From the NCBI RefSeq assembly GCF_000025985.1, contig NC_003228.3, positions 4,898,001 through 4,962,000 of the forward strand: a stretch of DNA of 64,000 nt, read 5' to 3'. The first letter of the stretch is position 1. Each line of letters starts with the position of its first letter. Shown here one piece after another: positions 13,268-53,922 of this stretch. The notes beneath the pieces were generated by a model. The model searched no databases. It saw only the letters and a list, made by a program, of their open reading frames with translations, and was not told the origin of the DNA. The DNA comes from Bacteroides fragilis NCTC 9343. GTDB taxonomy: Bacteria; Bacteroidota; Bacteroidia; Bacteroidales; Bacteroidaceae. Position numbers and translations under genes: made by a program.

Positions 13268-13282
13268 TGTAATGGTTTTGGG

Positions 13283-24322: not shown

Positions 24323-24366
24323 ACACTTTTCGTTAAAATGAGACGTAAAAGTAACTCATTGCCTGC

Positions 24367-30943: not shown

Positions 30944-30976
30944 AGGCACTATTCTTTATATTAATAAAGTAATCTA

Positions 30977-31094: not shown

Positions 31095-32408
31095 CTACGG
31101 TTTTACCGAAACCTTCACACTGCTAAGTGCTCTCTTATGACTATAGTCATCCAAAGAATTACTTCTTTCCTCGCTATAATCTATTCCTTTATAATCTTTA
31201 TCACCTACATTGGTAGCAACAGCAGTAATTGTAAAGTCACCGGCTCCGGTGTAAATATACTTATAAGTTTTCTGAATTCCTCCGGTAGTATATACAGAAC
31301 CTAATGAAACACCGGTATTCCACGGTTCATATTCATCAGTTCCCATCTCTATAAAAGAGAGATAAACATCTCCCTGAAAACCTTTGTACTTTGTATAGTC
31401 GGCTTCATGTACCGGAAGACCGGTAGCAGGATCGAGTTCACATTCATACGATTCCAATACTCCGTCTCCGTCCAAATCATATTTATAAGGCGAATCATCA
31501 GCTGCCACAAAAGTCGAACGACCATTCACGTACATATCCACTTGACGAAGAATGATTTTTTCTCCATGATCCAAAAAAGGCTGCAAGTAAGTATCCCGGT
31601 TGTACATATCACCCAGTTTATAAAATCCTTCCGTAGGACGGCGGGATAATGGATCGTTAGTCTGGAACGCTCCATACGAACGCTCATCTTGGAACGTATA
31701 ATATTTGTATCCTGCACTATATCCCTGAAAGTCTTCCAACTGTTCGGTATGTAAACCAAAATAAGCAGCTACCCATGCATCATTAGAGTATTTACGTATT
31801 GCACGATCAGCATCACACGCTACAAAGCGACTCTCGATAATTGTATTACCCGGTTGATTGGCAAGTCCTCCAAAGATATGAATATTCGGCTTCATCCGGA
31901 TACCCGAAGGAATCCGCCGATCTGTCACCGTAAACTTCAATTGATTCGTCCCTATATAGCTCATTTCCATCAGTGCCTCCGGAAAGTCTCCTTTTTTGTA
32001 GGGCACTAACTGGATATTATCAATCGCTCCGAAAAACTCAAAATCCTTTTTTACGTCTTCTATACTCTGATAGTCCTTAAAATATTTATAAAACAAGGTC
32101 TTCTCCCCATTCTTTGCATAAGAGACCCGATAACATTCTTCATAAAAGCTATCCCAATCATGTTCCATAATAGCTTTAATACGCGAACGCTCAAAGTTTT
32201 TTCCTTCATCACCCGTAAAAAGTGTCAGGTACTGAGCATCGGTATTGATCGTTACCGTCACCTCTTCACCGACTTTCGGATTTTCGGGAGACACAGAGAT
32301 ACTGACAGACGGTGTTTCTACATCTGCACCAAATTTCTCACAAGAAACCAGTGAAGTAGCTGCCACAGCAAGCAGCCCTATAATCAGTTTATTTGTTTTC
32401 ATATCCAT
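31095..32408 (-). CDS. Surface lipoprotein in SusE/F position, putative glycan-binding protein (PUL 2)
   Basis: The 437-residue lipoprotein (lipobox 'TSLVSCEKF') starts with an Ig/PKD-like domain at about 30-110 ('VSISVSPENPKVGEEVTVTI') and has an all-beta remainder of no clear family. An alternative ATG two codons in (32402) also gives a good signal peptide. Its place directly after susD is where Bacteroides PULs encode surface glycan-binding proteins, so that role is inferred from position. The C-terminal half has a Ca-binding-like run 'DLDGDGVLESYE'. Confidence 0.72.
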   Translation of the reverse strand: MDMKTNKLIIGLLAVAATSLVSCEKFGADVETPSVSISVSPENPKVGEEVTVTINTDAQYLTLFTGDEGKNFERSRIKAIMEHDWDSFYEECYRVSYAKNGEKTLFYKYFKDYQSIEDVKKDFEFFGAIDNIQLVPYKKGDFPEALMEMSYIGTNQLKFTVTDRRIPSGIRMKPNIHIFGGLANQPGNTIIESRFVACDADRAIRKYSNDAWVAAYFGLHTEQLEDFQGYSAGYKYYTFQDERSYGAFQTNDPLSRRPTEGFYKLGDMYNRDTYLQPFLDHGEKIILRQVDMYVNGRSTFVAADDSPYKYDLDGDGVLESYECELDPATGLPVHEADYTKYKGFQGDVYLSFIEMGTDEYEPWNTGVSLGSVYTTGGIQKTYKYIYTGAGDFTITAVATNVGDKDYKGIDYSEERSNSLDDYSHKRALSSVKVSVKP

Positions 32409-34412: not shown

Positions 34413-37400
34413 TTAGTATTTAAAATTAAGTGAGAATATATGAGACCGGGCATACGGATAAGCCGAGATATCGACTCCCGGAAGAATACGATTATTTACA
34501 GAGCTGCCACTACGTACCTCAGGATCATATCCCGAATAGTTCGTTAAACAGAAAACATTGTTAATCGTATATGTCAGAGCCAGGTCCTTAATTTTCCAAG
34601 CCTTTAATATATTTTTCGGCATACGGAAAGTTACAGCCAGGTTATTCATCTTCAGGAACGAACCATCTTCCACCATTTCAGAGTTGGAAGCAGCCCACAT
34701 ATACCCGGACCAATCAATTGCACCAGGACCTGTAAAAGTACCGGTAGGATTATTAGCAAACCAAGCATCTTTATAGTATACGGCCGACTTATTACGAATA
34801 TCGCCATTGTTCATCAGATTGTATACATTACCATTGATTATATCATTTCCGTATGACCAGCTGAAGTCCATAGCCAGTTCAATGAATTTCCAGCGCAAAC
34901 GGGTGTTCAAGCCACCGATAAATACCGGATTCACATCTCCTATCACGACACGGTCACTCATATCCACTTTCCCGTCTCCATTGGTATCTGCAAAAGATGG
35001 GAATCCGTATGGCATCTCTCTTTCAGTGGCATACCACCAAGGAGAATCAGCACTGCCTATACCATTATAGTCAGAATGCCAATTACTGCGAATACCTTCC
35101 ATTTGCAAACCATAGAACAGTCCGAGAGGATATCCCTTTTTTATCAGGACATTTTCCGAACCCGAAGCAGAACCCACCGGACGCCCTTCCAACATCTGTG
35201 TCTCAGCACCTAGACTCAGTACTTTGGACTGATTGGAACTAAAGTTCACTGTTGCATTCCACGTAAAGTCTTTCTTATCAATCAGCACACCGCCTACACT
35301 GATTTCAAATCCACGGTTACGTACCGAACCGATATTCCTGGTTACTTTTCCAAAACCGGAAGTACGTGGCAGATTCTGTTCAAGCAGCATATCACGAGTT
35401 GTCTTGGTATAGAGATCCAATGAAATATTCAGCCGGTTATTAAACATATCTAAATCGAGACCGCCGTTAAACTCTTCCGTTACTTCCCAACTGATTTCGG
35501 GGTTTGCCATACGGCTGGTGTACAAGGCCGGAATAGCTCCGTCACCAAAAATGGCTTGTCTCTGGCTGGAAGATAAGGTCTGTGCATAAGCATACGGAGC
35601 AATCTGATCGTTACCTACCTGACCATAGCTAAAACGTAGTTTCAAGTTATTAACGTTCTTCTCCAACCAAGATACATTCTTAAAAAATTCTTCTTCTGAA
35701 ACTCTCCAACCCAATGCTCCGGACGGGAAAAATCCCCAACGATTATCAGGGCTGAATTTAGAAGAACCGTCAGCACGCATAGATGCTTTCAATAAATAAC
35801 GCCCTTTATAAGAGTAGTTAGCCATCAATACCCCCGAAAGCATTGCTATCTTCTCGTAAGATACACCGGGAGATTTCACATGATTACCACTTTTTGCATC
35901 ATAAATACCTTCCCATCCCAAATCGGTATTAAACTGAGAATATTCCTGATTAAAGGTTTCATACTTGTTGGTATTAGCCTCGTATACGGCATTTACCGAG
36001 AGACTATGTACTTTGTTGAACACTTTATTAAATCCGGCCTGGACTACTCCACGCATATTTAATCCACTTTGCGTAGCGTATGTGGCCAATCCGTTATTAT
36101 CGTAGCCTCTCTGAATGGTTTTCGGGATAAATTCTTTCACTTCACCTTTGGGTATACGCACACCAATACCTCCTTTTACAAACCAGTTATCATTGATATT
36201 GTAAACCAACTCTGCCTGACCGAAGAAAGTATTATTCTTGTTAGAGTAATCAATATCTTTTAATTTTCTATAAGGGTTATCCATCTTACCTGTATAGTAA
36301 AGGTTATCATCTATCTCCTGAAAAGTCCATTCTTTAGGAACAAGCGGAGAGAAAGTCTGTATTTCGTTAAAAATATTACCTTCTGTCCAGAAAGCACCGC
36401 TACGAATATTGTGTTCATATGAAAGATTTGTGTTCAAAGTCAATTGCGGAAGCAATTTAATGCTATTATTCGTTTGGAAATAGAATCGTTTAAATCCGGT
36501 ATTGATGGCAATACCGTCTTCATTCATCAACGAAAAGATTGTAGAGTTCTGTATGCGGTCTGTTCCCCCTCTGTAAGAAACTTCATAATTCTGTTTAGTA
36601 CCATTCTGCAAACAAAGATCGGGATAGAATTGGAAACGGGAAGGATTGGTATTCCATATCTGATCTTTATATTCCTGATAGAAATCAGCATTTTGCCAGC
36701 GTCCGCTCATAATCATATCACGCATATACGCACGCATATAGTCTTCCGCACCCAGCATTAGAATAGAATTTGCCAGTTTACTGATACCGTAAGTAGCCTT
36801 CACAGAGATTTCACTCATACCGGCCGATCCTTTCTTCGTAGTAATCAACACAACGCCATTAGCCCCCTGTGCCCCATAAATGGCAGTTGATGATACGTCT
36901 TTCAGGATAGAGATACTCTCGATTGCATCAGGAGAGATAGTAGCCAAAGGACTTTCCAGAGGATCGTCCGAAATAGGGAGAGGAAAACCATCGATGACAT
37001 ACAGAGGTGAACTACCTGCCGTAATAGAACTGGCTCCACGAATCTTAATCGTAATTCCACCACCCGGCGCACCATCATTGTTCATTACCTGCACACCGGA
37101 TATTTTTCCTTTCAAAGCCTGCTCCAGACTTAACGGGTTGGTTTGCATGAACTGATCGGAACTCAAACTGGATACAGATCCGGTCAAGTCCACTTTACGC
37201 TGAGTCTGATAACCGGTCACTACCACCTCGTCAATCAATACTCCCGCATCCATCAGTACATCTATCCGATTTTGGCTACCTACAGTTTTTTCAACCGTAT
37301 TCATACCAATCATTGAGAAAACAAGTACTTGTCCCGGAGATACATTTTTAATTGTATACTCCCCATTCTCATTAGTAATCACCCCATTGTGTGTTCCTTT

Positions 37401-37583
37401 CACTTGTACAGTGGCACCAATAACAGTTTCATTACTGCCTTTCTCTCTCACCGTACCCGAAATGCTCTTTGTGTTTTGAGCAAATCCACCTGCAGACACC
37501 AGCACAAACATGCATATTAAGAAGACGGTTTTTATCCTGCCTTCCGTATCTGCTCTAAGGTTGTTCAGATCTTTTAGATTCAT
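34413..37583 (-). CDS. SusC-family TonB-dependent glycan transporter (PUL 2)
   Basis: The 1056-residue outer-membrane transporter has a long N-terminal stretch before the signal hydrophobic core ('TVFLICMFVLVSAGGFAQ'). It then has a carboxypeptidase-D-like domain, the TonB-box region 'LIDEVVVTGYQTQRKVDLTG', the plug with 'ALKGKISGVQV', and the barrel ending 'ARSHIFSLNFKY'. It is first in the minus operon of PUL 2 and is divergent from the hybrid two-component regulator, which is its expected activator. Confidence 0.96.
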   Translation of the reverse strand: MNLKDLNNLRADTEGRIKTVFLICMFVLVSAGGFAQNTKSISGTVREKGSNETVIGATVQVKGTHNGVITNENGEYTIKNVSPGQVLVFSMIGMNTVEKTVGSQNRIDVLMDAGVLIDEVVVTGYQTQRKVDLTGSVSSLSSDQFMQTNPLSLEQALKGKISGVQVMNNDGAPGGGITIKIRGASSITAGSSPLYVIDGFPLPISDDPLESPLATISPDAIESISILKDVSSTAIYGAQGANGVVLITTKKGSAGMSEISVKATYGISKLANSILMLGAEDYMRAYMRDMIMSGRWQNADFYQEYKDQIWNTNPSRFQFYPDLCLQNGTKQNYEVSYRGGTDRIQNSTIFSLMNEDGIAINTGFKRFYFQTNNSIKLLPQLTLNTNLSYEHNIRSGAFWTEGNIFNEIQTFSPLVPKEWTFQEIDDNLYYTGKMDNPYRKLKDIDYSNKNNTFFGQAELVYNINDNWFVKGGIGVRIPKGEVKEFIPKTIQRGYDNNGLATYATQSGLNMRGVVQAGFNKVFNKVHSLSVNAVYEANTNKYETFNQEYSQFNTDLGWEGIYDAKSGNHVKSPGVSYEKIAMLSGVLMANYSYKGRYLLKASMRADGSSKFSPDNRWGFFPSGALGWRVSEEEFFKNVSWLEKNVNNLKLRFSYGQVGNDQIAPYAYAQTLSSSQRQAIFGDGAIPALYTSRMANPEISWEVTEEFNGGLDLDMFNNRLNISLDLYTKTTRDMLLEQNLPRTSGFGKVTRNIGSVRNRGFEISVGGVLIDKKDFTWNATVNFSSNQSKVLSLGAETQMLEGRPVGSASGSENVLIKKGYPLGLFYGLQMEGIRSNWHSDYNGIGSADSPWWYATEREMPYGFPSFADTNGDGKVDMSDRVVIGDVNPVFIGGLNTRLRWKFIELAMDFSWSYGNDIINGNVYNLMNNGDIRNKSAVYYKDAWFANNPTGTFTGPGAIDWSGYMWAASNSEMVEDGSFLKMNNLAVTFRMPKNILKAWKIKDLALTYTINNVFCLTNYSGYDPEVRSGSSVNNRILPGVDISAYPYARSHIFSLNFKY

Positions 37584-37831: not shown

Positions 37832-37902
37832 TTTGTGACCATAAGTATCTTTTTGATTCGTTTTTATTTCAGACTTTTGTGTTGTACGTAATTAAGAGAC
37901 GA

Positions 37903-40900
37903 ATGAAGAAGAGCACTTTTACCCTGATTTTATTTTTTTCTTCTGTTATCCTATATGCACAACAGAACGAACTTATGTTCCACTCCCTGGGTAGTCAACA
38001 CGGACTTACCTATAGTGCCGTACGGGATATTCTGCAGGATTCAAAAGGATATATTTGGATTGCAACCCTCAAAGGACTGAACAGGTATGATGGATACAAC
38101 ATCAAACAATATTATAAGTCAGATGACGGACTCTCTTCAAACTGCATCGAGAAACTGCTACTCCTCGGTCAGGATACTCTATTGATGGGTACCAATGAAG
38201 GACTGTGCTTGTATGATATGATGAGAGAGAAGTTCACCACTATTGTTCCGCAAACCAAGGCCCCACTATATGTATTGGACATGGCCTACGACGGACGTTC
38301 AGTTTTCATTGCGTCCGATTCCGGGCTATATGCATATAGTAAGACAGAGCAAAGTATGCCACTACTCCATAAGGGATTGATTGTAAAAGTAACGCTGGAT
38401 ATGAATGGAAATGTATGGGCAGTGAGTCCAAATACGATTTATTGTTTCCGCCCAAACGGACAAATGACCAGAAAAATCACAGCTACTGAGGTTTCTCCGG
38501 ATTATCCTGTCGAGTTTACTTCTATTTATAAAGATTCGCAGGGGACTCTATGGCTGGGGACGACCGAAAACGGACTGTACCGATACAACAAAAACTATAA
38601 TCAATTCGTATCCGTGGAGTTCGCTTCACAAGACAGAAAGGATATGCGTTATATTCGCTGCATCCAAGAAGATATGCGTGGAAATTTATGGATCGGAACC
38701 GAAAACGGACTTTTCATCTATGACTATACAGATAACAGCTACATACAATATCGGCAGCATGCAAAAGATGTCCAATCCGGACTGACCGATAATGCGATCT
38801 ATACTATTTATAAAAGCCGGGGTGACATTATGTGGATCGGCACTTTCTTCGGAGGGGTCAGTTACACCAGCCTGACCGAAAATAATTTCCACTACCTGAT
38901 AGCAGATAATGGGAAACAATACCTGAAAGGAAAAGCAATCAGCAACATCATTAAAGATAAAAACGGAGCTTTGTGGTTTGCATCCGAAGATCATGGAATT
39001 TCTATTCTTTACCCGGATGGTCACATCAGGTATTTAAACAAATCGACACACCCGTCATTAAACGGAGATAATGTCCATGCATTAGCCGAAGATCACTCCG
39101 GTAATATCTGGATTGGCAACTTTATCGATGGGTTGCAAAAAGTCGATTTAGCAAAAGGCTATATTCGTTCATATAAAAACATAGCAGGGGGACACGCGGG
39201 ACTATCCAATAATTCAATCTATAAACTTTATGTTCATAATCCTGATACTATGTTTATAGGAACCAGCCAAGGTGTCAATATCTATCATTTCCGGACCGAT
39301 TCATTCACTCCCTTCCTTCCGGATGTATTCCGGCTTATACGTATTGACGACATCACACGTGATCTCAAAGGAAATATCTGGTTTTCCACACATTTCAACG
39401 GTATTTTTCGGTATCATATTCCGACCCATAGTATCCATCGATATCAAAAAGGAGTGACAGGCTGTAAAACAATGACCAGCGATAATATTTATTGTAGTTT
39501 TGTTGACTCCAAAGGAGAGGTCTGGTTCGGTACCAGCAACGGAGGATTGATGAAATACAATGCACGTGCAGACAGTATACAGGCATTCGGAAAGGAGAAT
39601 GAACTCCGGCAAAGAGATATTTATTCCATACAGGAAGATAGCTTTGGCTATTTATGGATGAGTACGGATAACGGTATCTTCTCTTTCAATCCGGAAAGTC
39701 GGAGTTTTGCCCATTATAAAGTATCCGATAATCTGGTTTCCAACCAGTTCAATGCCTGTCCGGGCTATAAAGATCCTGACGGTACCCTTTTCTTTGGCAG
39801 TATCAATGGGGTATGCTTCTTCCGACCGGAAGGACTGAACCATAACAGTCCTACAAACGATATTCATCTGACTTTCTCGGATTTCAGGATTTTTAATAAA
39901 CACGTACAACCATCACCGGACGGCATTCTACAGAATAATATCGACAGCACATCTGTCATTCGCTTACCTCACGGTATGAATACCCTGACTTTTGATTTTC
40001 TGGTAATCAACTATAATGAAAATTGCCAATCACAACTTTCCTGTGAATACTATCTGGAAGGTATGGAGACCGAATGGAATGCAACACAACAAATCCCACA
40101 ATCAGTCACATATACCAACCTTGATCCGGGCACCTACCAATTTCACGTACGGGTCATAGGAAAAAACGGAGTTGTATTCGACCGTCGGAAAATAACCATT
40201 AACATTCGTCCTCACTTTTTGCTGAGTGGTTTCATGATCACTATTTATTCTCTTATCGGACTTCTTATCAGTTTTATAATTGTCCGCTTCTACCAAGTGC
40301 GTATGCGAGACAAAATGGATATCCGCATCGAAAGAATGGAAAAAAACAACCTGCGCGAACTGAATAAACACAAGCTGAATTTTTTCACTTATATCACCCA
40401 TGAGTTTAAGACTCCTTTATCTATCCTTATGGCTGTATTCGAAGATATATCAATCGGACGAAACAATACAATTACCGGTGAAGAAATGAAAATCATCAAT
40501 CGGAATATCCAACGGCTTCAATTCCTGATCAATCAACTTTTGGAATTTCGTTCTGTAGAAACCGACCATGCACGCATCGAATATGTCAAAGGAGATATTA
40601 TGACTTATGGACGCAGCATCTTCGAACTGTTTATTCCCGTCTTCAGACAAAAGCAGATTGTTTTTCAATATGCAACTTCAGCCGACTCTTATTATACGGT
40701 ATTCGATAGAGACAAGATAGAGAAAATCATCAGTAATCTGCTCAGCAATGCTTTCAAACATTCTGATCCTCAAAGTGAAATAAACTTCAGGATTGATGTA
40801 GACAAAGCTTCCGGACAATTGATTCTCTCCTGTCATAACAGCAGTTCATATATTCATCCGGAACAGCGGGAAGCTGTCATGCAGCCTTTTCACAAAACCG

Positions 40901-41931
40901 ATTCATCCGATCAAAAGTATTCCAATACGGGTATTGGACTGGCTTTGGTGAATGGTCTAGTTCAGCTGCTTTCAGGAACAGTTGAGATAGAAAGTCATCA
41001 AAATAGCGGTACGACCTTTAAAGTAAAATTACCTTTGGTCGAAGACTCTAAGGATATGATTGCACCGGACGAAACTTTGGATATCGTTAACTCACCCGAC
41101 GTAGTGGCAGATACTGTATACCTGCTCAATAACTCCGGACTAAAAGAGGATATGAATGCTGCAAATGCCGAGAAAAAGATGACTGTACTTTTGGTGGAAG
41201 ATAATCCGGATATCAATAACATTTTAAAAAGTAAGCTACTCCGTTTATATAAGGTGAAAACGGCTTATAACGGACAGGAAGCTGTAGAGTTGCTAAAAAC
41301 ACATATCATCGACATTATCATCAGTGACATTATGATGCCTTATATGGACGGATATGAATTGAGTAAATATATTAAAACTTCTCGTGAGTACTCCCATATC
41401 CCGGTCATTCTCATCACTTCACAGCCTTCGAAAGAAAACGAATTGCAAGGTTTATCTGCAGGAGCCGACGCCTATATCGAAAAACCATTCACTTTCGATG
41501 AATTGAATCTTAGAATTACCAACTTGCTTAAAGCCAAAAATAATATCCGCGAACATTATCACGACATGAAAATATTCCAACTCAATGAAGAACTCAACAA
41601 CAAAGACGAGGAATTTATCAAATCATTGACACAATTCGTCATCGAACACATTGAGAACCCGGAATTGAGTGTCGACCAACCGACCACTCACATGAATATC
41701 AGTCGAACTCAACTATACAATAAACTGAAAAAACTATTAAACCTGAGTGCAACCGAGTTTATCAATAAAATCAAGATCGATGTTGCTAAAGTAAAGATTA
41801 TAAAGACTAATCTGACTATTGCTGAAATCTCATGGCAACTCGGATTCAATAATCCCAGCTATTTCAGTAAGACATTCAAGCGTTTTTGTGGAGTGACACC
41901 TAATGAATTTAAAAACGGTAAAAGCCAATAG
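37903..41931 (+). CDS. Hybrid two-component system sensor-regulator (PUL 2)
   Basis: The 1342-residue protein holds all parts of a two-component pathway. A signal peptide (MKKSTFTLILFFSSVILYAQ) is followed by about 14 Reg_prop propeller repeats, a Y_Y_Y domain at about 690-765, a membrane span at about 770-797 and a HisKA domain with the phospho-His in 'ITHEFKTPL'. HATPase_c follows ('LLSNAFKHS', 'TGIGLALV'), then a receiver at about 1094-1212 with phospho-Asp in 'IIISDIMMPYMDG', and an AraC-type HTH at about 1246-1341. The open frame extends to a GTG at 37879, but the ATG at 37903 gives the proper signal peptide. It lies between the two arms of PUL 2 and presumably controls both. Confidence 0.95.
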   Translation: MKKSTFTLILFFSSVILYAQQNELMFHSLGSQHGLTYSAVRDILQDSKGYIWIATLKGLNRYDGYNIKQYYKSDDGLSSNCIEKLLLLGQDTLLMGTNEGLCLYDMMREKFTTIVPQTKAPLYVLDMAYDGRSVFIASDSGLYAYSKTEQSMPLLHKGLIVKVTLDMNGNVWAVSPNTIYCFRPNGQMTRKITATEVSPDYPVEFTSIYKDSQGTLWLGTTENGLYRYNKNYNQFVSVEFASQDRKDMRYIRCIQEDMRGNLWIGTENGLFIYDYTDNSYIQYRQHAKDVQSGLTDNAIYTIYKSRGDIMWIGTFFGGVSYTSLTENNFHYLIADNGKQYLKGKAISNIIKDKNGALWFASEDHGISILYPDGHIRYLNKSTHPSLNGDNVHALAEDHSGNIWIGNFIDGLQKVDLAKGYIRSYKNIAGGHAGLSNNSIYKLYVHNPDTMFIGTSQGVNIYHFRTDSFTPFLPDVFRLIRIDDITRDLKGNIWFSTHFNGIFRYHIPTHSIHRYQKGVTGCKTMTSDNIYCSFVDSKGEVWFGTSNGGLMKYNARADSIQAFGKENELRQRDIYSIQEDSFGYLWMSTDNGIFSFNPESRSFAHYKVSDNLVSNQFNACPGYKDPDGTLFFGSINGVCFFRPEGLNHNSPTNDIHLTFSDFRIFNKHVQPSPDGILQNNIDSTSVIRLPHGMNTLTFDFLVINYNENCQSQLSCEYYLEGMETEWNATQQIPQSVTYTNLDPGTYQFHVRVIGKNGVVFDRRKITINIRPHFLLSGFMITIYSLIGLLISFIIVRFYQVRMRDKMDIRIERMEKNNLRELNKHKLNFFTYITHEFKTPLSILMAVFEDISIGRNNTITGEEMKIINRNIQRLQFLINQLLEFRSVETDHARIEYVKGDIMTYGRSIFELFIPVFRQKQIVFQYATSADSYYTVFDRDKIEKIISNLLSNAFKHSDPQSEINFRIDVDKASGQLILSCHNSSSYIHPEQREAVMQPFHKTDSSDQKYSNTGIGLALVNGLVQLLSGTVEIESHQNSGTTFKVKLPLVEDSKDMIAPDETLDIVNSPDVVADTVYLLNNSGLKEDMNAANAEKKMTVLLVEDNPDINNILKSKLLRLYKVKTAYNGQEAVELLKTHIIDIIISDIMMPYMDGYELSKYIKTSREYSHIPVILITSQPSKENELQGLSAGADAYIEKPFTFDELNLRITNLLKAKNNIREHYHDMKIFQLNEELNNKDEEFIKSLTQFVIEHIENPELSVDQPTTHMNISRTQLYNKLKKLLNLSATEFINKIKIDVAKVKIIKTNLTIAEISWQLGFNNPSYFSKTFKRFCGVTPNEFKNGKSQ

Positions 41932-42134
41932 ACAGACCGTTTTGCCACTTTATTCGGTCCATTACGCCTTAACAGTGATCTGAGACATCCATTATTTGTA
42001 AATGTCGAATAATCGTCTTTACTCCCATAAACATTACCTATAAAGGTAATTTGAGCTATTAATATTCTTAATATTATATGAATATATGCTCAACAACATA
42101 CATACCAGTTCGTACCTGTTTAAAATATTATGTA

Positions 42135-42142
42135 TATATTTG
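42135..42142 (+). promoter_or_regulatory. -7 element of the glycyl-radical operon promoter
   Basis: TATATTTG is a perfect -7 box 20 bases upstream of the ATG at 42163. It lies inside the extended frame from 42130, which supports the later start. Upstream, AATATTC (42061-42067) and GAATATAT (42080-42087) form a small inverted repeat similar to the half-sites near susC. Confidence 0.55.
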
Positions 42143-42162
42143 CCATTGTTAATCCAAACACA

Positions 42163-42915
42163 ATGAAAACAGGAACAATATTCAGTGTCGAGGAATTTGC
42201 CATCCATGACGGACCGGGAATCCGAACAACGATATTTCTCAAGGGATGTCCTCTACGCTGTGCATGGTGCCATAATCCCGAAGGTATATCGCCACAGCCG
42301 CAATACATGATTAAAAAAGGAGTTAAAAGTATTTGTGGATATCAGATAACTGTGGAAGAATTGGTTACCATGATCGAAAAGAACCGGTCCATTTATACGC
42401 TCAACCGGGGAGGAGTTACACTAACCGGCGGAGAACCCTTATTTCAACCGGATTTTGTTATCGAACTGCTCCGACAACTTCCGGACATACATACGGCTAT
42501 CGAAACAAGCGGATACGCAAACACTCACATTTTCAATGAGGTTACTTCTTTAGCTGATCTTATTTTATTCGACATCAAACATACGGACCCGGAAATGCAC
42601 CGGAAATATACAGGAGTGGATAATGCGATTATACTGGAAAATCTTGCTTTACTCTGTAATTCCGGACGAGATTTTATCATTCGGATACCTTTAATCCCGG
42701 GTGTTAATGATACCCGGGAAAACATGAGTGCCATTCTTGAAAAAATCAAAGATGCCAGGAACCTGATACGTGTCGAAATCCTTAGATATCACCGTACAGC
42801 AGGTGCCAAATACGCAATGATCGGAGAAACGTATCATCCTCCGTTCGATACCGGAAAGGCGCCACAAATCTATAATGTATTTGAAGAAAATAATATCAAA
42901 AATCTAATTGTATGA
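42163..42915 (+). CDS. Glycyl-radical enzyme activating enzyme (radical SAM)
   Basis: The 250-residue protein cleaves S-adenosylmethionine to place the radical on the partner enzyme's glycine. The cluster-binding motif is Cys29, Cys33 and Cys36 in 'GCPLRCAWCHNPEG', preceded by 'HDGPGIRT' as in PFL activase. 'VTLTGGEPLFQPDF' is the SAM-contact GGE motif. The ferredoxin-like insertion with extra cysteines found in most activases of eliminase-type glycyl radical enzymes is absent; only one Cys follows. Length is like PFL activase. The in-frame ATG at 42130 lies upstream of the likely promoter and was rejected. Its stop overlaps the next start (ATGA). Confidence 0.92.
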   Translation: MKTGTIFSVEEFAIHDGPGIRTTIFLKGCPLRCAWCHNPEGISPQPQYMIKKGVKSICGYQITVEELVTMIEKNRSIYTLNRGGVTLTGGEPLFQPDFVIELLRQLPDIHTAIETSGYANTHIFNEVTSLADLILFDIKHTDPEMHRKYTGVDNAIILENLALLCNSGRDFIIRIPLIPGVNDTRENMSAILEKIKDARNLIRVEILRYHRTAGAKYAMIGETYHPPFDTGKAPQIYNVFEENNIKNLIV

Positions 42916-44981
42916 ACGAAAGAATTAACTATCTAAAAACGTATATTTTAGATAAACGACACCATTCACAAAGGAGAACACCGTCAAGTATCGGGCTGGA
43001 CAAATTGAACACAATTTATGCCCAACAAGGTTTATCTCCTGTAGAACGTGCTACAGCCTGTTTCGCAGCTTTGATGAACGCTGAACTCCCGGTTATACTT
43101 CCGGGTGAAAAGATCGTTTTTACCCGTACCCTTACGCAAGTACCGGATATATACACCCCTGAAGAATGGAACGAAATAAAAAACAAATATTACATCCACG
43201 AAAAAGGTACGGTATGTAATATCTCCCCCAATTACGCTTATACCATTCAACACGGACTGGAAGCGAGAAAACAGGAGATCCGAAAGCGTCAGGAAAATCC
43301 CTCCTTAAATGAAAAAGAGAGAGTATTCCTCAATAGCATGTACCAATGCATCATATCCATACAGAAACTAATTGAGAAGTATGAACAATATGCATTGCTC
43401 AATAACGAGACAGAAATTGCGCACACTTTACATACCATAAAGACCGAAGGCGCTCAAAACTTCAGACAAGCTCTACAGCTTTTGAGAATTCTCCACTTCT
43501 CCATTTGGGAAGCAGGCAACTATCACAATACCCTCGGCCGCTTCGATCAATATATGTATCCTTTCTATCAGAGGGACCTGGAAAATGGAACACTCACCAA
43601 AGAAGAAGCATTCGATCTGCTTGAAGAATTTTTCCTTGTATGCAATAAGGACAGCGACCTGTATCCAGGTATGCAACAGGGTGACAATGGGCAGAGCCTG
43701 GTTTTGGGAGGACGCGATCCGGAGGGCAAATACTTATTCAACGACCTGTCCCGAATGTGCCTGCAGGCAAGTTACGAATTAAAACTAATTGATCCTAAAA
43801 TCAACATTCGTGTAGACCCAAAGACCCCTGACGAAATATTCTCTTTAGGTTCCCGTCTGACCAAAATAGGGCTGGGTTTCCCCCAATACAGCAATGATGA
43901 TATCATCATTCCGGGACTTATACGGAAAGGCTATTCCAAAGAAGACGCATACAATTACGTAGTGGCTGCCTGCTGGGAATTTATCATCCCTAACCGAGCC
44001 ATGGATATACCTAACATTGATGCCGTTTCTTTAATCGGATGTGTAGACCGGTGCCTTGAAAAACTAAATACCTGTTCGGACTATTCATCCTTTTATACAT
44101 TGGTGGAGCAGGAAATACAAAAGGAGGTCAATGCGATCTGCGAGAAACACCGCAATCTCTACATCATCCCTTCTCCAATGATGTCTTTACTGATGGACGG
44201 CACCATCGAAAGAGCCAAAGATATTTCGGAAGGTTCCTACTACAACAACTACGGAATCCACGGAACAGGCATTGCAACCGCTACCGATACCCTTGCTGCC
44301 CTGAAAAAATACTATTTCGAAGAGCAAAGCCTGGATTATACAACCCTGCTTACTGCCATAAGAAGCAACTTCAAAGGCTACGAAGAGTTACAAAAAAAAT
44401 TAAGAGAAGAAGCGCCCAAAATGGGACAGGATAATGACTATGCCGACTTGATAGCCAAAGATCTTCTCGACTCTTTTGATCGGTCATTGGCCGATAAACG
44501 AAATGAACGCGGAGGGGTTTACCGGGCAGGTACGGGTACCGCTATGTACTACATTTTCCATTCCAATCAATTACGTGCCACCCCCGACGGACGTAACGAT
44601 GGCGAGATAATTCCTGCTAATTACTCCCCCAGCCTGTTTTTAAAACAAAAAGGTCCTATATCCGTCATAAAATCTTTTACCAAACAACATCTGGACCGTG
44701 TTGTCAACGGTGGTCCCCTCACCCTGGAGTTCGATCAATCCGTATTCAGCAATGACGAAACCATTGAAAAGCTGGGTATGCTCGTGAAAACCTACATCGT
44801 TTTAGGCGGCCATCAACTACAACTAAACACAGTCAGCCGGGAGACACTGCTACATGCCCGGAAACATCCCGAACAACACAAAAATTTAATTGTCAGAGTA
44901 TGGGGATGGAGCGGATATTTTGTGGAATTAGACGAATGTTACCAAAATCACGTTATCAATCGGATCGAATTCGGTCTATAA
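42912..44981 (+). CDS. Glycyl radical enzyme of unknown substrate (PUL 2)
   Basis: The 689-residue protein is an oxygen-sensitive glycyl radical enzyme. The radical site is Gly665 in 'RVWGWSGYF' near the C-terminus. The thiyl site is Cys354 in 'VAACWEFIIP', with Glu356 two residues on. A single Cys followed by x-Glu is the pattern of dehydratases and C-N/C-S/C-O lyases of the family. Pyruvate formate-lyase has two adjacent Cys and no such Glu. The protein is 70-200 residues shorter than most characterised members. It is translationally coupled to the activase and precedes a sugar porter, so a sugar or sugar-derived substrate is likely. Automatic labels such as 'formate acetyltransferase' would be misleading. 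Confidence 0.88.
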   Translation: MNERINYLKTYILDKRHHSQRRTPSSIGLDKLNTIYAQQGLSPVERATACFAALMNAELPVILPGEKIVFTRTLTQVPDIYTPEEWNEIKNKYYIHEKGTVCNISPNYAYTIQHGLEARKQEIRKRQENPSLNEKERVFLNSMYQCIISIQKLIEKYEQYALLNNETEIAHTLHTIKTEGAQNFRQALQLLRILHFSIWEAGNYHNTLGRFDQYMYPFYQRDLENGTLTKEEAFDLLEEFFLVCNKDSDLYPGMQQGDNGQSLVLGGRDPEGKYLFNDLSRMCLQASYELKLIDPKINIRVDPKTPDEIFSLGSRLTKIGLGFPQYSNDDIIIPGLIRKGYSKEDAYNYVVAACWEFIIPNRAMDIPNIDAVSLIGCVDRCLEKLNTCSDYSSFYTLVEQEIQKEVNAICEKHRNLYIIPSPMMSLLMDGTIERAKDISEGSYYNNYGIHGTGIATATDTLAALKKYYFEEQSLDYTTLLTAIRSNFKGYEELQKKLREEAPKMGQDNDYADLIAKDLLDSFDRSLADKRNERGGVYRAGTGTAMYYIFHSNQLRATPDGRNDGEIIPANYSPSLFLKQKGPISVIKSFTKQHLDRVVNGGPLTLEFDQSVFSNDETIEKLGMLVKTYIVLGGHQLQLNTVSRETLLHARKHPEQHKNLIVRVWGWSGYFVELDECYQNHVINRIEFGL

Positions 44982-44993
44982 TACATCTGCATT

Positions 44994-46313
44994 ATGAAAA
45001 ATACAGCAAAGAATTTCATGTTTTACGTTGCCTTCGTGGCATCATTGGGAGGATTACTTTTTGGATTCGATACCGCAGTGATATCCGGAGCCGAGAAATC
45101 CATCCAGGTGGTATATGATCTATCCGACTTCAGCCATGGCTTCACCATTGCTATCGCTTTGATCGGTACAATCATCGGAGCTTTCGTCTGTAGTAAACCG
45201 GTAGAAAAACACGGACGTCTGAAAGCACTGAAAATTATTGCTTTTCTCTACTTTGTTTCTGCAGTGGGCAGTGCTGCCATCATCGATTGGTATTCCTTTT
45301 TATTCTTCCGTTTTGCCGGAGGTTTAGCTGTCGGAGCCTCATCCGTAGTCGGTCCCATGTACATTGCCGAAATATCCCCCTCGCGTTGGCGCGGCCGTTT
45401 TGTCGCATTCTTCCAGTTTAATATTGTACTGGGTATTGTACTGGCTTACTTTTCCAACTATTGGATTCATGGCATTGCGCATGATTGGCAATGGATGTTA
45501 GGAGTTGAAGCCATTCCTGCCATCGCATTCGCTCTTCTATTATACACCGTACCTGAAAGTCCTCGTTGGCTGGTAAAGCAAGATCGGGAAGCCGAAGCCC
45601 GACACGTCATAAAGAAGGTCAGCAATGCAGATATTGAACAGGAAATTCATGAAATCAAAGAATCCCTGGTAACAATAGGAGCCAGTGGCGAAAAACTGTT
45701 TCAGCATAAATACCGGAAACCGATCCTCTATGCTTTCCTTATAGCTACTTTCAACCAGTTATCAGGTATCAATGCCATTCTCTATTATGCTCCGAGGATT
45801 TTTGAGATGTCAGGTGTATTTACCGACTCAGCCATGATGCAGTCTATTGTTATCGGACTGACCAACCTTACTTTCACTATGATCGGAATGATCCTGATAG
45901 ATCAGGTAGGACGAAAAAAACTCCTCTATATCGGTTCCATCGGTATGACCCTCTCTTTGGCCTTAGTAGCCAAAGGTTTCTACCAAGACGCATTTTCAGG
46001 TTACTATATGCTTATCTGCCTGATGGGGTTTATCGCTTTCTTTGCCATTTCACTGGGTGCCGTCATTTGGGTATTAATCTCCGAAGTCTTCCCAAACAAT
46101 GTGCGCTCCAAAGGGCAAGTATTAGGCAGCATGACACATTGGGTGTGGTCCGCCCTCCTTTCATGGATGTTTCCCGTTTTCATCCGTACAGGAGGTACCT
46201 TCATTTTCAGTTTCTTTGCCATTATGATGTTCCTAAGCTTCTTCTTTGCTCTCAGGCTACCCGAAACAAAGAACAAGTCTCTGGAGCAGATACAAAAGGA
46301 ATTGACCAATTAA
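44994..46313 (+). CDS. MFS sugar porter (inner membrane)
   Basis: The 439-residue protein has the twelve-helix layout of sugar:proton symporters of the XylE/AraE/GLUT type. Signature motifs are 'GGLLFGFDTAVISGA' in helix 1, 'RFAGGLAVGASSVVGPMYIAEISP' after helix 4 (abridged form of the sugar-porter signature), 'PESPRWL' before the central loop, and 'FNQLSGINAILYYAP' in helix 7. It imports a free monosaccharide. It follows the glycyl radical enzyme by 12 bases, which links that enzyme to the imported sugar. Confidence 0.93.
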   Translation: MKNTAKNFMFYVAFVASLGGLLFGFDTAVISGAEKSIQVVYDLSDFSHGFTIAIALIGTIIGAFVCSKPVEKHGRLKALKIIAFLYFVSAVGSAAIIDWYSFLFFRFAGGLAVGASSVVGPMYIAEISPSRWRGRFVAFFQFNIVLGIVLAYFSNYWIHGIAHDWQWMLGVEAIPAIAFALLLYTVPESPRWLVKQDREAEARHVIKKVSNADIEQEIHEIKESLVTIGASGEKLFQHKYRKPILYAFLIATFNQLSGINAILYYAPRIFEMSGVFTDSAMMQSIVIGLTNLTFTMIGMILIDQVGRKKLLYIGSIGMTLSLALVAKGFYQDAFSGYYMLICLMGFIAFFAISLGAVIWVLISEVFPNNVRSKGQVLGSMTHWVWSALLSWMFPVFIRTGGTFIFSFFAIMMFLSFFFALRLPETKNKSLEQIQKELTN

Positions 46314-46339
46314 CAACTTACGAATAATGAACTAAAAAT

Positions 46340-47479
46340 ATGAATCGTATGAAAACAAAACTGATCATTTTATTAATACTCACAACCATGATACACACAA
46401 ACACCGTAAATGCCCAACATTCACAATTGAAAAGAGCCGATTTTCAACAAACAATTGACGGAAAGCAAACCGATCTCTACTTTCTGAGAAACAAAAACGG
46501 CATTGAAATTGCCATCACCAATTTCGGAGGACGAGTCGTTGAATTCTGGACTCCGGATAAAAAAGGGCATTTTGAAGACATCGTCCTCGGACACGATCAT
46601 GTGGACAAATATCTCCATTATAAAGGTGAAAGATTTTTGGGAGCCACTATCGGACGGTATGGCAACCGGATCAACAAAGGAAAGTTTACCCTGAACGGAC
46701 AAACTTACCAGTTACCCATCAATGATACTCCCAACAGTCTACATGGTGGCTTTAAAGGATTTGATATGGTAGTATGGGATGTTGAGCAGCCGGACAGCCA
46801 GACTTTACAACTCACGTATTTATCCAAAGATGGTGAAGAGGGGTATCCGGGAAATCTCCAAGTATCCATGAATTACAAGCTTACGGATAAAAACGAATTT
46901 ATTATCACTCACCAGGCTCAAACAGACAAAGAAACGGTCATCAACCTCACCCATCATTCCTTCTTCAACCTGCACGGTGCAGGCAATAAGGATATCAATG
47001 ACCATATACTCATGATCAATGCGGATAAGTTTACTCCTGTCGATCGGACCCTAATCCCCACCGGTATTCTCCAGGATGTAGAAGGGACCCCGATGGATTT
47101 TCGTCGCCCCACACCTATCGGAAAGCGAGTAAATGATTCGTTCGAGCAACTAGAGTTCGGTCACGGCTACGACCATAATTGGGTATTGAATCGCAAAACC
47201 TCCAACACCCCCGAACTGGCAGCAACCGTTTATGAACCCGCCTCAGGAAGATATCTTGAAGTATGGACCACCGAACCCGGACTACAATTCTATGGCGGTA
47301 ACTTCTTTGATGGTACAATGACCGGAAAGCACGAAAAGAAATACAACTACCGGGCTTCCCTCGCATTGGAAACCCAGCACTATCCGGATAGTCCTAACCA
47401 ACCGGCATTCCCGTCAACAACCCTCTTACCCGGAGATACTTACAAACATATATGCATCTATAAAATCAATGTACAATGA
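46340..47479 (+). CDS. Secreted aldose 1-epimerase
   Basis: The 379-residue protein has a signal peptide (hydrophobic core 'LIILLILTTMIHTNTVNA') and the galactose mutarotase fold. Visible motifs are 'NFGGRVVEFWTPD', 'GRYGNRINKGKFTL', 'NSLHGG', the catalytic 'LTHHSFFNL' His region, and the Glu in 'LALETQHYPDSPNQPAFPS'. It interconverts alpha and beta anomers of a free sugar in the periplasm, probably before import. A second ATG three codons in (46349) is an equally plausible start. Its stop overlaps the GH127 start by four bases (ATGA). Confidence 0.92.
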   Translation: MNRMKTKLIILLILTTMIHTNTVNAQHSQLKRADFQQTIDGKQTDLYFLRNKNGIEIAITNFGGRVVEFWTPDKKGHFEDIVLGHDHVDKYLHYKGERFLGATIGRYGNRINKGKFTLNGQTYQLPINDTPNSLHGGFKGFDMVVWDVEQPDSQTLQLTYLSKDGEEGYPGNLQVSMNYKLTDKNEFIITHQAQTDKETVINLTHHSFFNLHGAGNKDINDHILMINADKFTPVDRTLIPTGILQDVEGTPMDFRRPTPIGKRVNDSFEQLEFGHGYDHNWVLNRKTSNTPELAATVYEPASGRYLEVWTTEPGLQFYGGNFFDGTMTGKHEKKYNYRASLALETQHYPDSPNQPAFPSTTLLPGDTYKHICIYKINVQ

Positions 47480-49551
47480 AAACCACAAAACATTTATCTG
47501 TCGCAGCAGTACTAACCGTACTGATGCAAATGGGGTGTCAGTCTCACACAGACAATACCCGGCAAACACTCCACTTGCCCGAGCTAAACGAAGTCCGGAT
47601 AGAAGATGCTTTCTGGAGTCCGAAACTCGATATCTGGAGGAAAATAACCACTAATGATGTATTAAACAAATTCGAAGGGAAATACACTCCTTTTCCCGGA
47701 TCGACCGACACGCGTAATGCTTTCCGGAATTTCGATCGTGTAGCTGAAGGGCAGAGAGATATCAAACAGCACGATGGTCCCGAATGGTATGACGGACTCG
47801 TTTATGAAAGTATCCGGGGTATCGCCGACTTTCTTGCAAGCCACCCCAATAAAGAACTGGAAAAACGAATCGACGGATATGTAGACCGCATCTATGCCGC
47901 TCAGCAAACAGAGCCGACCGGATACATCAACACCCATACCCAACTTATGGAAAACAACCATAGATGGGGAGACAATGGGGGACTCCTTCGTGGACAACAC
48001 GATGTATACAATGCCGGGATGCTGATCGAAGCCGGAGTACATTATTATCAGGCAACCGGCAAAACACGTTTGCTTGAAATTGCAACCCGCTTTGCCAATT
48101 ACATGGCAGATTATATGGGTCCGGAACCACGCAAGAATATCGTTCCCGCACATTCCGGCCCCGAGGAAGCCGTAATGGCATTATACTGGTTGTATAAAAA
48201 CGAACCGGAACTGAAAGATAAACTTTCCATACCGGTCCGGGAATCAGATTATTATAATCTGGCCACTTTTTGGATAGAAAACAGAGGGCATCACTGTGGC
48301 TTTCCATTATGGGGAACGTGGGGATACCGGAAATCGGAAAAATGGATTAAAGACGCTTGTTATCACCAAGCTGAATTCGGCACACACTCTCGTCCCAGTT
48401 GGGGAGAGTATTCACAAGATTCGATCCCTGTACTCGAACAAAAAACAATTGAAGGGCATGCTGTGCGAGCTACCTTGATGGCAACCGGTCTAACCGCGGC
48501 CGCACTTGAGAACCAATCACCCCAATACATCGAAACAGCTAAACGTCTTTGGGAGAATATGGCAGGCAAACGGATGTTCATCACAGGTGGAGTCGGCGCT
48601 ATTCACGAAGACGAAAAGTTTGGTCCGGACTACTTTCTGCCCACCGATGCATATCTGGAAACCTGCGCAGCTGTCGGAGCCGGTTTTTTCAGCCAACGCA
48701 TGAACCAATTAACTTGCAATGCCCGCTATATGGACGAAGTGGAAAGAGTGCTTTACAACAATGTACTGACTGGCGTTTCTTTGTCCGGTGATAAATACAC
48801 CTATCAAAATCCCCTGAATACCGATAAGCCCGACAGGTGGGAATGGCATGTATGTCCATGTTGCCCACCGATGTTCCTGAAAATCATGGCTGCCATGCCC
48901 GGTTATATCTATGCCTATCAGGGAGATAATGTCTATGTCAATTTATTCATAGGAAGCGAAGTACGTGTCCCTGTCGGTAAAAGCAACAGCGTCCGATTGA
49001 AACAATTAACCTCTTATCCCTGGCACGGCGCTGTTTCCATTCAAGTCAATCCCGACAAGGCAAGTACCTTCTCTATAAAAGTCCGTATTCCCGGATGGGC
49101 ACAAGGTACAGAAAATCCATACGACCTTTACCAATCGAATCTAAAAGCACCGGTCAAGTTAAAAGTTAATCAAGAGGATGTACTTTTGAGGATCGTAGAC
49201 GGATATGCAGAAATCAACCGGGAATGGAAAAAAGGCGATCACATTGAGCTTGAACTACCCATGCAACCTCGCCTGATCACTGCAAATAAAGCAGTCGAAA
49301 ACTTACGGGGACAAGTCGCATTGGCGTCAGGGCCTATCATTTACTGTTTTGAGGATGCCGATAATCCGGAACTGCAGACATTCAAACTTCAGGCACAAAC
49401 ACCTTTGGAACTCTCCCATGACAGTAATCTGCTCAATGGAGTCAATATCATCAAATGCCAGGGTGATATTCCGGCAAAAGCCATCCCATATTATGCTGTG
49501 GCCAACAGGGAAGAGAGCCATAGCTATAAAGTATGGATTCCTCAGAAATAA
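47476..49551 (+). CDS. GH127-family lipoprotein, second copy (PUL 2 plus arm)
   Basis: The 691-residue lipoprotein (lipobox 'LMQMGCQSH') has the GH127 barrel with its zinc-thiolate site intact: 'YLETCAAV' (Glu-x-Cys) and 'CPCCPPM' (Cys pair). Compared with the GH127 at 25732-28194 it lacks the C-terminal discoidin-like module and is widely diverged, so the two probably cleave different linkages or positions. It is last in the operon activase-GRE-porter-epimerase-GH127, with four-base overlap to the epimerase. It releases sugar in the periplasm, judging by the lipoprotein signal. Confidence 0.88.
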   Translation: MKTTKHLSVAAVLTVLMQMGCQSHTDNTRQTLHLPELNEVRIEDAFWSPKLDIWRKITTNDVLNKFEGKYTPFPGSTDTRNAFRNFDRVAEGQRDIKQHDGPEWYDGLVYESIRGIADFLASHPNKELEKRIDGYVDRIYAAQQTEPTGYINTHTQLMENNHRWGDNGGLLRGQHDVYNAGMLIEAGVHYYQATGKTRLLEIATRFANYMADYMGPEPRKNIVPAHSGPEEAVMALYWLYKNEPELKDKLSIPVRESDYYNLATFWIENRGHHCGFPLWGTWGYRKSEKWIKDACYHQAEFGTHSRPSWGEYSQDSIPVLEQKTIEGHAVRATLMATGLTAAALENQSPQYIETAKRLWENMAGKRMFITGGVGAIHEDEKFGPDYFLPTDAYLETCAAVGAGFFSQRMNQLTCNARYMDEVERVLYNNVLTGVSLSGDKYTYQNPLNTDKPDRWEWHVCPCCPPMFLKIMAAMPGYIYAYQGDNVYVNLFIGSEVRVPVGKSNSVRLKQLTSYPWHGAVSIQVNPDKASTFSIKVRIPGWAQGTENPYDLYQSNLKAPVKLKVNQEDVLLRIVDGYAEINREWKKGDHIELELPMQPRLITANKAVENLRGQVALASGPIIYCFEDADNPELQTFKLQAQTPLELSHDSNLLNGVNIIKCQGDIPAKAIPYYAVANREESHSYKVWIPQK

Positions 49552-52431: not shown

Positions 52432-53922
52432 TTATTTACATATAAACACTTTACACTCACCGGGAGCAAGCTTTACGACCCATCCGGTAGAAGCCTCAGC
52501 CACAAGGCTGCCTTCTATAACATCATATACCCGATCCAATGACAATCCTTCTACCGTCTTTACATTCAACTCCACGTCTACGGGTCCGGATATCCGGTTC
52601 AGACAAGCTATTGCTTTGCTTCCGTCACTCAACGGCTTCACCCAGACATCATAATGATCGGCACGAATGGCACGCTCTGCCTGAATGCCCAGCGGATCCT
52701 GATTGATAGCAATCAGATCCTTATTCAAAAGTATTTGTAACGTACTATCATTCATCTGCCGTACATCATTGCCACAGAGTAATGGAGAAGCCATCATGCA
52801 CCAGAGAGCAAAGTGGGACTGATATTGTTCATTCGTACAACCTTCCGATTCATAACCGATACTCTTACTTTTTCCGCCAATCCCCACAACAAGCATATCC
52901 GGATCATTCCATCCGCCGGGTCTTGCATATTCACTAAGCGGTGCATTTATTTCAAGAATGTTCAAAATGCCACGTAAACCTCCCTTTTCGTCTGTCGAAC
53001 GATTCCACAAGTCGCCAATATCACCGGATACTCGCCATAAATGTCCGCCGACTTTCTTCGCCCATTTCCAAGGTTCACGCTGTCCCCACTCACAAATTGA
53101 AAAGACGATAGAACGGTCGGTCGCTCTCAATGCCCTCCCCATCTTCTCATATCTTTCCATCGCTTCTACTCTTCCGGCAGGTGCATTGCAATAGTCATAC
53201 TTCAAAAGATCAACACCCCAGGATGCGAAATCCCGTGCATCAATTTCTTCATATCCATAACTGCCACAAACCCCACCACAAGTTTTATCAGCGGCATCCG
53301 AATAAATTCCAAGTTTGAATCCTCGCTCATGCAAGTAATCGGCCACATATTTGATGCCTCTCGGGAACTTTGTTTTATCAATTTGGATATGACCGTCAGC
53401 TCCCCTTTCAGGCAACTGCCAAAAGTCATCGATATTAATATAAGCATACCCCAAATCACGCATTCCGTTTTCTACCATTGCATCTGCAGTTTGCAACAGT
53501 AGCTCCTCTGTCAGGTGACGTCCGAATGTATTCCAACTGTTCCACCCCATCGGAGGAGTCAGCAACAACTCATCTCCTATATTAATCAGTAGTTCCTGTG
53601 TATCGGTTCCAAGGGCATTCTCAGCTTTCAGCATTACTTTGTACGTTCCCTTTTCTACTACTTTTCCCTTGATTATCCCCGTTTCTTTATCCAGCTTCAA
53701 TCCCTTGGGAAGATTTTCAGCATGCCACTTTATCGGTCGTTCTCCGGAGGTGGGAATATAAAACAAAAAAGGGGTAGCAGGATAGTTTCCCACCACATGA
53801 GGGGGATTAATACACGGTTTCCCCTCAAAAATAGCGGTTCGCACTTCGCTCGCCTGTACTGTCGGACTCGCCAGCATCAGACATAAGCAATATAAAAAAG
53901 AAACATAACTTGTAATTTTCAT
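52432..53922 (-). CDS. GH27 alpha-galactosidase with N-terminal Ig-like domain
   Basis: The 496-residue secreted enzyme removes terminal alpha-galactose (or a related alpha-linked sugar). After the signal peptide comes a putative Ig domain (about 35-118, 'LPKGLKLDKETGIIKGKV'). The GH27 TIM barrel opens with 'PPMGWNSWNTFG'; the nucleophile Asp is in 'LLKYDYCNAP' and the acid/base Asp in 'GGWNDPDML'. A C-terminal beta domain follows. It lies 26 bases after a beta-propeller gene and is third in a run of propeller-propeller-GH27. Confidence 0.92.
   Translation of the reverse strand: MKITSYVSFLYCLCLMLASPTVQASEVRTAIFEGKPCINPPHVVGNYPATPFLFYIPTSGERPIKWHAENLPKGLKLDKETGIIKGKVVEKGTYKVMLKAENALGTDTQELLINIGDELLLTPPMGWNSWNTFGRHLTEELLLQTADAMVENGMRDLGYAYINIDDFWQLPERGADGHIQIDKTKFPRGIKYVADYLHERGFKLGIYSDAADKTCGGVCGSYGYEEIDARDFASWGVDLLKYDYCNAPAGRVEAMERYEKMGRALRATDRSIVFSICEWGQREPWKWAKKVGGHLWRVSGDIGDLWNRSTDEKGGLRGILNILEINAPLSEYARPGGWNDPDMLVVGIGGKSKSIGYESEGCTNEQYQSHFALWCMMASPLLCGNDVRQMNDSTLQILLNKDLIAINQDPLGIQAERAIRADHYDVWVKPLSDGSKAIACLNRISGPVDVELNVKTVEGLSLDRVYDVIEGSLVAEASTGWVVKLAPGECKVFICK

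Follow-up and report, generated by a model that had tools for sequence, protein, structure and literature searches.

A glycyl radical enzyme from a seemingly undescribed family accompanies a sugar porter in Bacteroides fragilis and may act on free sugars

What might a glycyl radical enzyme (GRE) contribute to a polysaccharide utilization locus (PUL)? We examined this question in a 64,000-nucleotide stretch of the Bacteroides fragilis NCTC 9343 genome (hereafter, the window), where genes for a GRE, its activase, a sugar porter, a GalM-family aldose epimerase, and a glycoside hydrolase of family GH127 form a single tight operon (42130-49551). The operon adjoins a locus encoding a hybrid two-component system (HTCS) regulator and a SusC/SusD pair. 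Its genes, with the predicted catalytic codons of the GRE, are as follows:

42130-42915, plus strand: GRE-activating radical S-adenosylmethionine (SAM) enzyme, PFLE/PFLC subfamily, 261 amino acids (aa); PF04055; TIGR02494 at 254 bits, cut-off 174
42912-44981, plus strand: GRE, 689 aa, from a clade that appears to be undescribed; PF02901 and PF01228; structural model with a predicted local distance difference test score (pLDDT) of 90.6
43971-43979, plus strand: codons for Cys354-Trp355-Glu356, the CxE motif of the GRE with its predicted thiyl Cys, read from the sequence
44904-44906, plus strand: codon for the radical Gly665 of the GRE, within RVWGWSGYF, read from the sequence
44994-46313, plus strand: XylE-like sugar porter of the major facilitator superfamily (MFS), 439 aa; PF00083; TIGR00879 at 341 bits, cut-off 238
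46340-47479, plus strand: aldose 1-epimerase (GalM family), 379 aa; PF01263; apparent signal peptide, judged by eye
47476-49551, plus strand: GH127 enzyme of the operon, 691 aa; PF07944, PF20736, and PF20737; E-x-C and CPCC motifs; best solved relative 6ex6

The operon begins 198 bases after the end of the HTCS gene, with the SusC/SusD arm opposite. Four-base ATGA overlaps join activase to GRE and epimerase to GH127, and gaps of 12 and 26 bases separate GRE from porter and porter from epimerase. A sequence-only reading of the window had described just such a five-gene unit, with an intact CxxxCxxC motif in the activase and an intact thiyl Cys354, Glu356, and radical Gly665 in the GRE. Open reading frame (ORF) coordinates and family searches agree with this layout; the activase motif is present, beginning at residue 40, and the three GRE residues are invariant in 41/41 aligned family members. 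Each of the 11 further non-PFL GREs in the alignment (PFL, pyruvate formate-lyase) has them as well. The true activase start is likely the in-frame ATG at 42163, which would give a protein of 250 aa, as against 249-254 aa in many Bacteroidota orthologues.

Does this GRE belong to a known family? Both of its domains score above cut-off (PF02901, 308-314 bits; PF01228, 75 bits), and it falls below the cut-off of all 13 NCBIfam models that it matched. Among the equivalogs, the scores set against their cut-offs were 295/1100 bits for HypD, 234/1050 for CutC, 260/1000 for HpfG, 241/1000 for HpsG, 176/1100 for indoleacetate decarboxylase, 155/1150 for hydroxyphenylacetate decarboxylase, 278/1109 for PRK09983, and 66/994 for PFL; the broader TIGR01774 subfamily gave 325/678. 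Identity to solved or named GREs is at most 29%, and glycerol and propanediol dehydratases are among its nearest relatives of solved structure. In a quick tree of 53 proteins, the GRE and 40 relatives form a single clade (Shimodaira-Hasegawa-like approximate likelihood ratio support, 99) separate from PflD, YbiW, a HypD, and the genome's own PFL. PflD forms its own clade with two relatives (support 100), YbiW branches separately, and the GRE groups with neither. Tight clustering with PFL or another known group, the outcome singled out beforehand as fatal to a new role, was not seen. Close relatives occur in B. fragilis Q1F2 (91% identity) and in an uncultured Bacteroides (99%).

The family also has a residue signature. 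At 32 of the 689 positions, a residue fixed in at least 39 of the 41 family members is missing in all ten of the GREs used for comparison, a set that left out PFL and the sequence at locus L106. Polar signature positions are N103 (His in 10/10 others), D247, D249, N259, N368 (Asp in 7/10 others), N446, and H450, while the signature tryptophans W355, W664, and W666 lie around the predicted thiyl Cys354 and radical Gly665. The GRE is shorter than PflD, chiefly by 49 residues after position 80. L106 itself (1293-3380) encodes a divergent GRE of ~30% identity that shares N103, A353, W355, N368, and N446 with the family and is perhaps its sister group. By motif and predicted fold, the window's GRE is a putative eliminase.

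The family is apparently undescribed, a judgment drawn from the titles and abstract starts of the literature searched, with most subscription papers outside its scope; within those bounds, no paper places such a GRE in a PUL or alongside a sugar porter, and none is known to us. The claim that no characterised GRE has this role and gene context was borne out to the same extent. The sole match with both GRE and PUL terms, PMC13027841, has GRE only among its references, and the GRE terms in PMC7807696 concern choline lyase.

How widespread is the arrangement? A scan of 84,980 species genomes gave 436 stretches encoding a GRE relative (family membership of each is not implied), of which we kept the closest 80: 32 loci from Bacteroidota, 7 from Verrucomicrobiota, 35 from Bacillota, 3 from Spirochaetota, and 3 without a phylum. 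As in the window, where the cognate activase adjoins the GRE, an activase lies within 400 bases of it in 76/80 loci; two of the remaining four have no activase match, and in the other two it is further off. By tblastn, a porter homologue is present in 39/39 Bacteroidota and Verrucomicrobiota loci, in 34 of them within 600 bases of the GRE: all 7 from Verrucomicrobiota and 27 of the 32 from Bacteroidota, the other five being 0.9-4.1 kb off. The same search found the porter in none of the other 41 loci, and there Rbs/Mgl-type importer genes occur in 16 and MalFG/AlgM-type permeases in 6 others. Members of the RbsA cluster carry Walker A and LSGGNQQK motifs (15/15), and those of the RbsC cluster lie at loci that match PF02653 (19/19), the L058 member being identical to a PF02653 match; RbsA- and RbsC-labelled proteins had no match in the PDB at the thresholds set. 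The evolutionary bond of the GRE to sugar uptake holds strictly in Bacteroidota and Verrucomicrobiota, and more loosely in the other loci.

An aldose epimerase accompanies the GRE in 21/80 loci. Two loci carry duplicated enzymes: L127 has two GRE-activase pairs, and L133 has two GRE genes near a single activase; these may be paralogues with different sugars. In the lineage to which the window belongs, the GRE family is uncommon (3/251 genomes of the taxonomic family and 2/393 of the order, both counts including the window's genome). Activase, GRE, and importer look like a cassette that has been gained and lost. The activases differ in a second feature, a CxxCxxCxxxC cluster motif that we take to be ferredoxin-like. 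It is missing from the window's activase and from 27/29 Bacteroidota and Verrucomicrobiota activases, and at least one copy is present in 33/37 from other loci, the counts covering activases readable as ORFs and leaving out those that the ORF caller missed or broke. The two exceptions among the 29, L040 and L041, are both Bacteroidota. L041 groups with Bacillota sequences in the quick tree (fork support 91, drawn open; L040 is absent from the tree), a placement that hints at transfer.

Which sugar might the porter carry? It exceeds the TIGR00879 sugar-porter cut-off and falls short of the XylE model NF007484 (362/608 bits). In an alignment with XylE, five of the residues that we take to line the XylE pocket are kept: Q168 (Gln141 here), Q289, N294, W392, and W416. 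Three others are changed in 34/34 porters aligned: Q175 to Ile or Leu (I148 here), Q288 to Asn (N254), and Q415 to His (H382). This pattern points away from xylose and glucose and toward some other sugar.

Is GH127 as constant a partner as the porter? GH127 matches occur in only 7/32 Bacteroidota loci (two of them, L003 and L007, being B. fragilis or near it) and in 3/35 from Bacillota, at 0.8-7.8 kb from the GRE; at L129, a GH127 gene adjoins the GRE. A GH51-like gene is found in 11/80 loci, GH78 in 6/80, and GH106 in 3/80, and further glycosidases near the cassette are of GH36 or raffinose-synthase type, GH4, GH5, GH43, and GH116. Within one class of Bacillota, six loci carry raffinose-synthase-type genes. 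The importer is kept while the glycosidases change, and therefore an imported, unphosphorylated sugar is supported as the substrate and a tie to GH127 is not. GH127, GH51-like, GH43, and perhaps GH36 enzymes fit L-arabinose, GH36 and GH4 fit galactose, and the rhamnosidase families fit neither; from this company, our guess is an aldose of the L-arabino or D-galacto type.

The setting of the operon in the window is a PUL in the usual Bacteroidetes sense: domain searches place a SusC/SusD pair, a regulator, and glycosidases within one locus. The genes beyond the operon are as follows:

37879-41931, plus strand: HTCS regulator with Reg_prop, Y_Y_Y, HisKA, HATPase, response regulator, and AraC-type helix-turn-helix domains
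34413-37583, minus strand: SusC-like TonB-dependent receptor of the same PUL, from the domain search
32421-34400, minus strand: SusD-like protein, from the domain search
31095-32408, minus strand: 437-aa protein after SusD, without a Pfam match in the profile search
28196-30949, minus strand: DUF5695 protein, flanked by the SusD-side genes on one side and the second GH127 on the other, from the domain search
25732-28194, minus strand: second GH127 enzyme, with an F5/8-type C domain and E-x-C and CACC motifs

Both GH127 proteins have the catalytic domain and the E-x-C and CxCC motifs that we take to mark this family. Aceric acid was rejected as the sugar, both proteins lying far under the cut-off of the aceric acid hydrolase model NF049879 (342 and 432 of 950 bits). 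The 437-aa protein is probably a surface glycan-binding protein, judging from its place after SusD and from one relative with PF16409. Only 32 homologues of it were found, the relative with PF16409 being a distant one, and its fold had no PDB match at an E value of 0.001 or better. Elsewhere in the window are a second PUL (7725-19444), with GH43, a Glycoamylase-family protein (PF10091), SusD, SusC, and a BglX-like GH3 above the NF011678 cut-off, and, 3 kb downstream of the operon on the other strand, a gene (52432-53922) that by eye resembles a GH27 alpha-galactosidase.

What becomes of the sugar after import? The sequence-only reading saw no kinase, isomerase, or aldolase in the locus; as to the kinase, this holds for the operon. 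What had been drawn from that absence—a sugar attacked by radical chemistry first—is weakened, because such genes share the GRE's run in a few loci of other phyla. A FucI-like isomerase occurs there in four loci, L046 (without a phylum), L071 and L080 (Spirochaetota), and L075 (Bacillota); it had no PDB sequence match at 1e-5. Three of these (L046, L075, and L080) also have a class II aldolase, and L046 alone has a xylulokinase-like FGGY kinase. A DUF4867 gene adjoins the GRE in L078 and, assigned by cluster, lies five genes after the activase in L082. A paper on DUF4867 ties the family to aldose/ketose gene clusters and proposes a mutarotase or ring-opening role with activity undetected, and we accordingly rejected the idea that it is a proven isomerase. 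In L021 (Verrucomicrobiota), a xylose-isomerase-like triosephosphate isomerase (TIM) barrel follows the porter. Also recurring in the 80 loci are a lactonase-like SGL protein (2), a zinc alcohol dehydrogenase (3), and an aldo-keto reductase (5). Minorities though all of these are, they suggest an isomerase-kinase-aldolase route for the GRE product.

Past the minus arm of the window's PUL, 375 bases beyond the second GH127, lies a PfkB gene (24367-25356). It has a long match of at least 48% identity in 15 of the 21 genomes searched in the genus, the window's included (14/20 others at 48-96%, two of them with one in-frame stop). An S41-protease gene adjoins it in 15/15 such loci, and GH127 adjoins it only in the window. 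We therefore rejected PfkB as the pathway kinase and regard it as a housekeeping gene; with the S41 protease it forms a conserved pair (22640-25356) between the two PULs.

How, then, might the GRE act? The enzyme passes no equivalog cut-off, stands apart in the tree, and is tied to a sugar porter, so that the best reading is one in which radicals attack a sugar that carries no phosphate. The sequence-only reading had the substrate as a free sugar released by GH127, imported, and attacked first by radicals; the radical attack on an imported sugar stands as this best reading, and the GH127 origin was not borne out, GH127 being present in few loci. In the sequence of steps that we envisage, PUL enzymes would free the sugar from a glycan, the secreted epimerase would bring it to one anomer, and the porter would import it without phosphorylation. 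The activase and SAM would generate a glycyl radical at Gly665, which would move to Cys354, and the thiyl radical could then abstract a hydrogen from a hydroxyl-bearing carbon of the sugar. With Glu356 as the base, a neighbouring C-O bond would be cleaved to yield a deoxy-keto sugar, to be split by housekeeping enzymes or, in the few other loci, by the linked isomerase, kinase, and class II aldolase. The operon, the family, the intact residues, and the link to sugar uptake are what the sequences show; from them we infer the eliminase reaction, the unphosphorylated substrate, and the order of the steps.

We put it at about an even chance that activase, GRE, and porter are a conserved cassette for the catabolism of free monosaccharides, with the GRE eliminating on an imported, unphosphorylated sugar. 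The wider proposal is somewhat more tentative: that an undescribed GRE family of Bacteroidota, Verrucomicrobiota, Bacillota, and Spirochaetota attacks free sugars as the first intracellular step, through a mobile activase-GRE-importer cassette fed by the varying glycosidases of its hosts. Several points weigh against the first of these. The substrate, product, and activity of the GRE are predictions from sequence. Outside Bacteroidota and Verrucomicrobiota, the importer is within 1 kb of the GRE in only 8/22 loci and at 1.3-8 kb in the other 14, and in 19/41 no importer was found among the recognised clusters, some contigs being short. The glycosidases (GH127, GH51-like, GH36-like, GH106, GH78, GH4, GH5, and GH43) are too varied for any single sugar, and their labels, like those of the other enzymes, come from one representative per cluster. 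Finally, the 80 loci cover just the nearest relatives, with close duplicates of the window (L003 and L007) among them.

Could a different substrate explain the same loci? One candidate is no aldose at all: a cyclitol, an alditol, or an anhydro-sugar would be released from a glycoside and then opened in the way that anhydrohexitol phosphates are by PflD and YbiW. These closest of the GREs reported to act on sugars cleave a C-O bond in 1,5-anhydrohexitol phosphates, and the raffinose-synthase-type genes of the six Bacillota loci would suit such a source, but the epimerases of 21/80 loci point to a reducing sugar, and we think this substrate unlikely. Similarly improbable, and marginally more so, is a GRE that comes last in the pathway and takes a small sugar-derived diol or aldehyde (propanediol, glycerol, or glycolaldehyde type), like the glycerol and propanediol dehydratases among its closest solved structures. 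Rhamnosidase-family genes nearby (the GH78 and GH106 genes counted above) would fit, as would the aldehyde dehydrogenase gene that precedes the activase, in the same orientation, in L061 (34 bases away) and in L050. In Bacteroidota and Verrucomicrobiota, however, the GRE adjoins the importer, no kinase or aldolase was recognised in the run, and an isomerase-like gene appears only in L021; moreover, His164 and Asp447 of glycerol dehydratase, which we take to be substrate contacts, are replaced by Asn in the GRE (N103 and N368, the latter position mapped through an ungapped PflD alignment).

Two further explanations concern the pathway that the GRE belongs to. That it is a radical substitute for AraA and AraB in L-arabinose use would accord with the GH127 and GH51-like neighbours and with the window's genome, in which we found no AraA match and no ribulokinase above cut-off (best, 45 bits). 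Yet AraA exceeds its cut-off in 19 of the 50 GRE-bearing genomes searched (of the 80 locus genomes), five of which carry a GH51-like gene in the GRE run itself (L008, L011, L012, L015, and L016), and the GH106 and GH36-like partners are misfits; we hold this substitution to be quite doubtful. Some public annotations label relatives as formate C-acetyltransferase or pyruvate formate lyase, as they would if the GRE were an ordinary PFL paralogue placed in the PUL by chance. We give that almost no credence: of the two PF02901 matches in the 5.24-Mb genome, the GRE scores 308 bits and the other PFL-like gene (1586782-1588545) 639, the two proteins are 18.6% identical, the PFL equivalog gives only the 66 of 994 bits listed above, and Ala353-Cys354 stands where we take PFL to have its Cys-Cys pair.

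Why would radical attack on an imported free sugar matter? To our knowledge, known sugar pathways phosphorylate, isomerise, oxidise, or reduce the sugar before breaking it. If our preferred reading is true, a GRE acting on free sugar would add one more way to begin sugar catabolism, usable only without oxygen, with some free sugar opened by radical chemistry before phosphate is added, and it could account for the fate of released sugar in certain anaerobes of the gut and rumen. According to a review, many of the GREs that are abundant in the gut lack a known function. The function of this one is directly testable because importer, mutarotase, candidate glycosidases, and enzyme occur together.

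How does the system compare with known ones? The B12-independent glycerol dehydratase of Clostridium butyricum (1r8w) is ~100 residues longer than the window's GRE (787 versus 689) and has His164 and Asp447 at the positions of Asn103 and Asn368; we know of no sugar-porter link for it. HypD is likewise a GRE eliminase and, according to a review, occurs in Firmicutes and Bacteroides, but the window's GRE reaches only 295 of its 1100 cut-off bits, and L110, which exceeds that cut-off, branches separately in the tree. XylE-type porters share the TIGR00879 subfamily and most pocket residues with the family's porters and differ at Q175, Q288, and Q415, which are Ile/Leu, Asn, and His in all 34. PflD and YbiW, the 1,5-anhydrohexitol-6-phosphate lyases (8id0 and 8id7, by title), are alike in being GREs that break a C-O bond in a ring derived from a sugar, with 28% and 26% identity, respectively, to the window's GRE. 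The 1-deoxyfructose-6-phosphate that they form is reported to undergo further metabolism, and their substrates are phosphorylated and brought in by the phosphotransferase system, whereas the importers linked to the window's GRE family are of MFS or ATP-binding cassette type. In Escherichia coli, the aldolase gene fsaA adjoins the ybiWY pair, which we offer as an analogy for the aldolases that accompany the GRE in a few loci.

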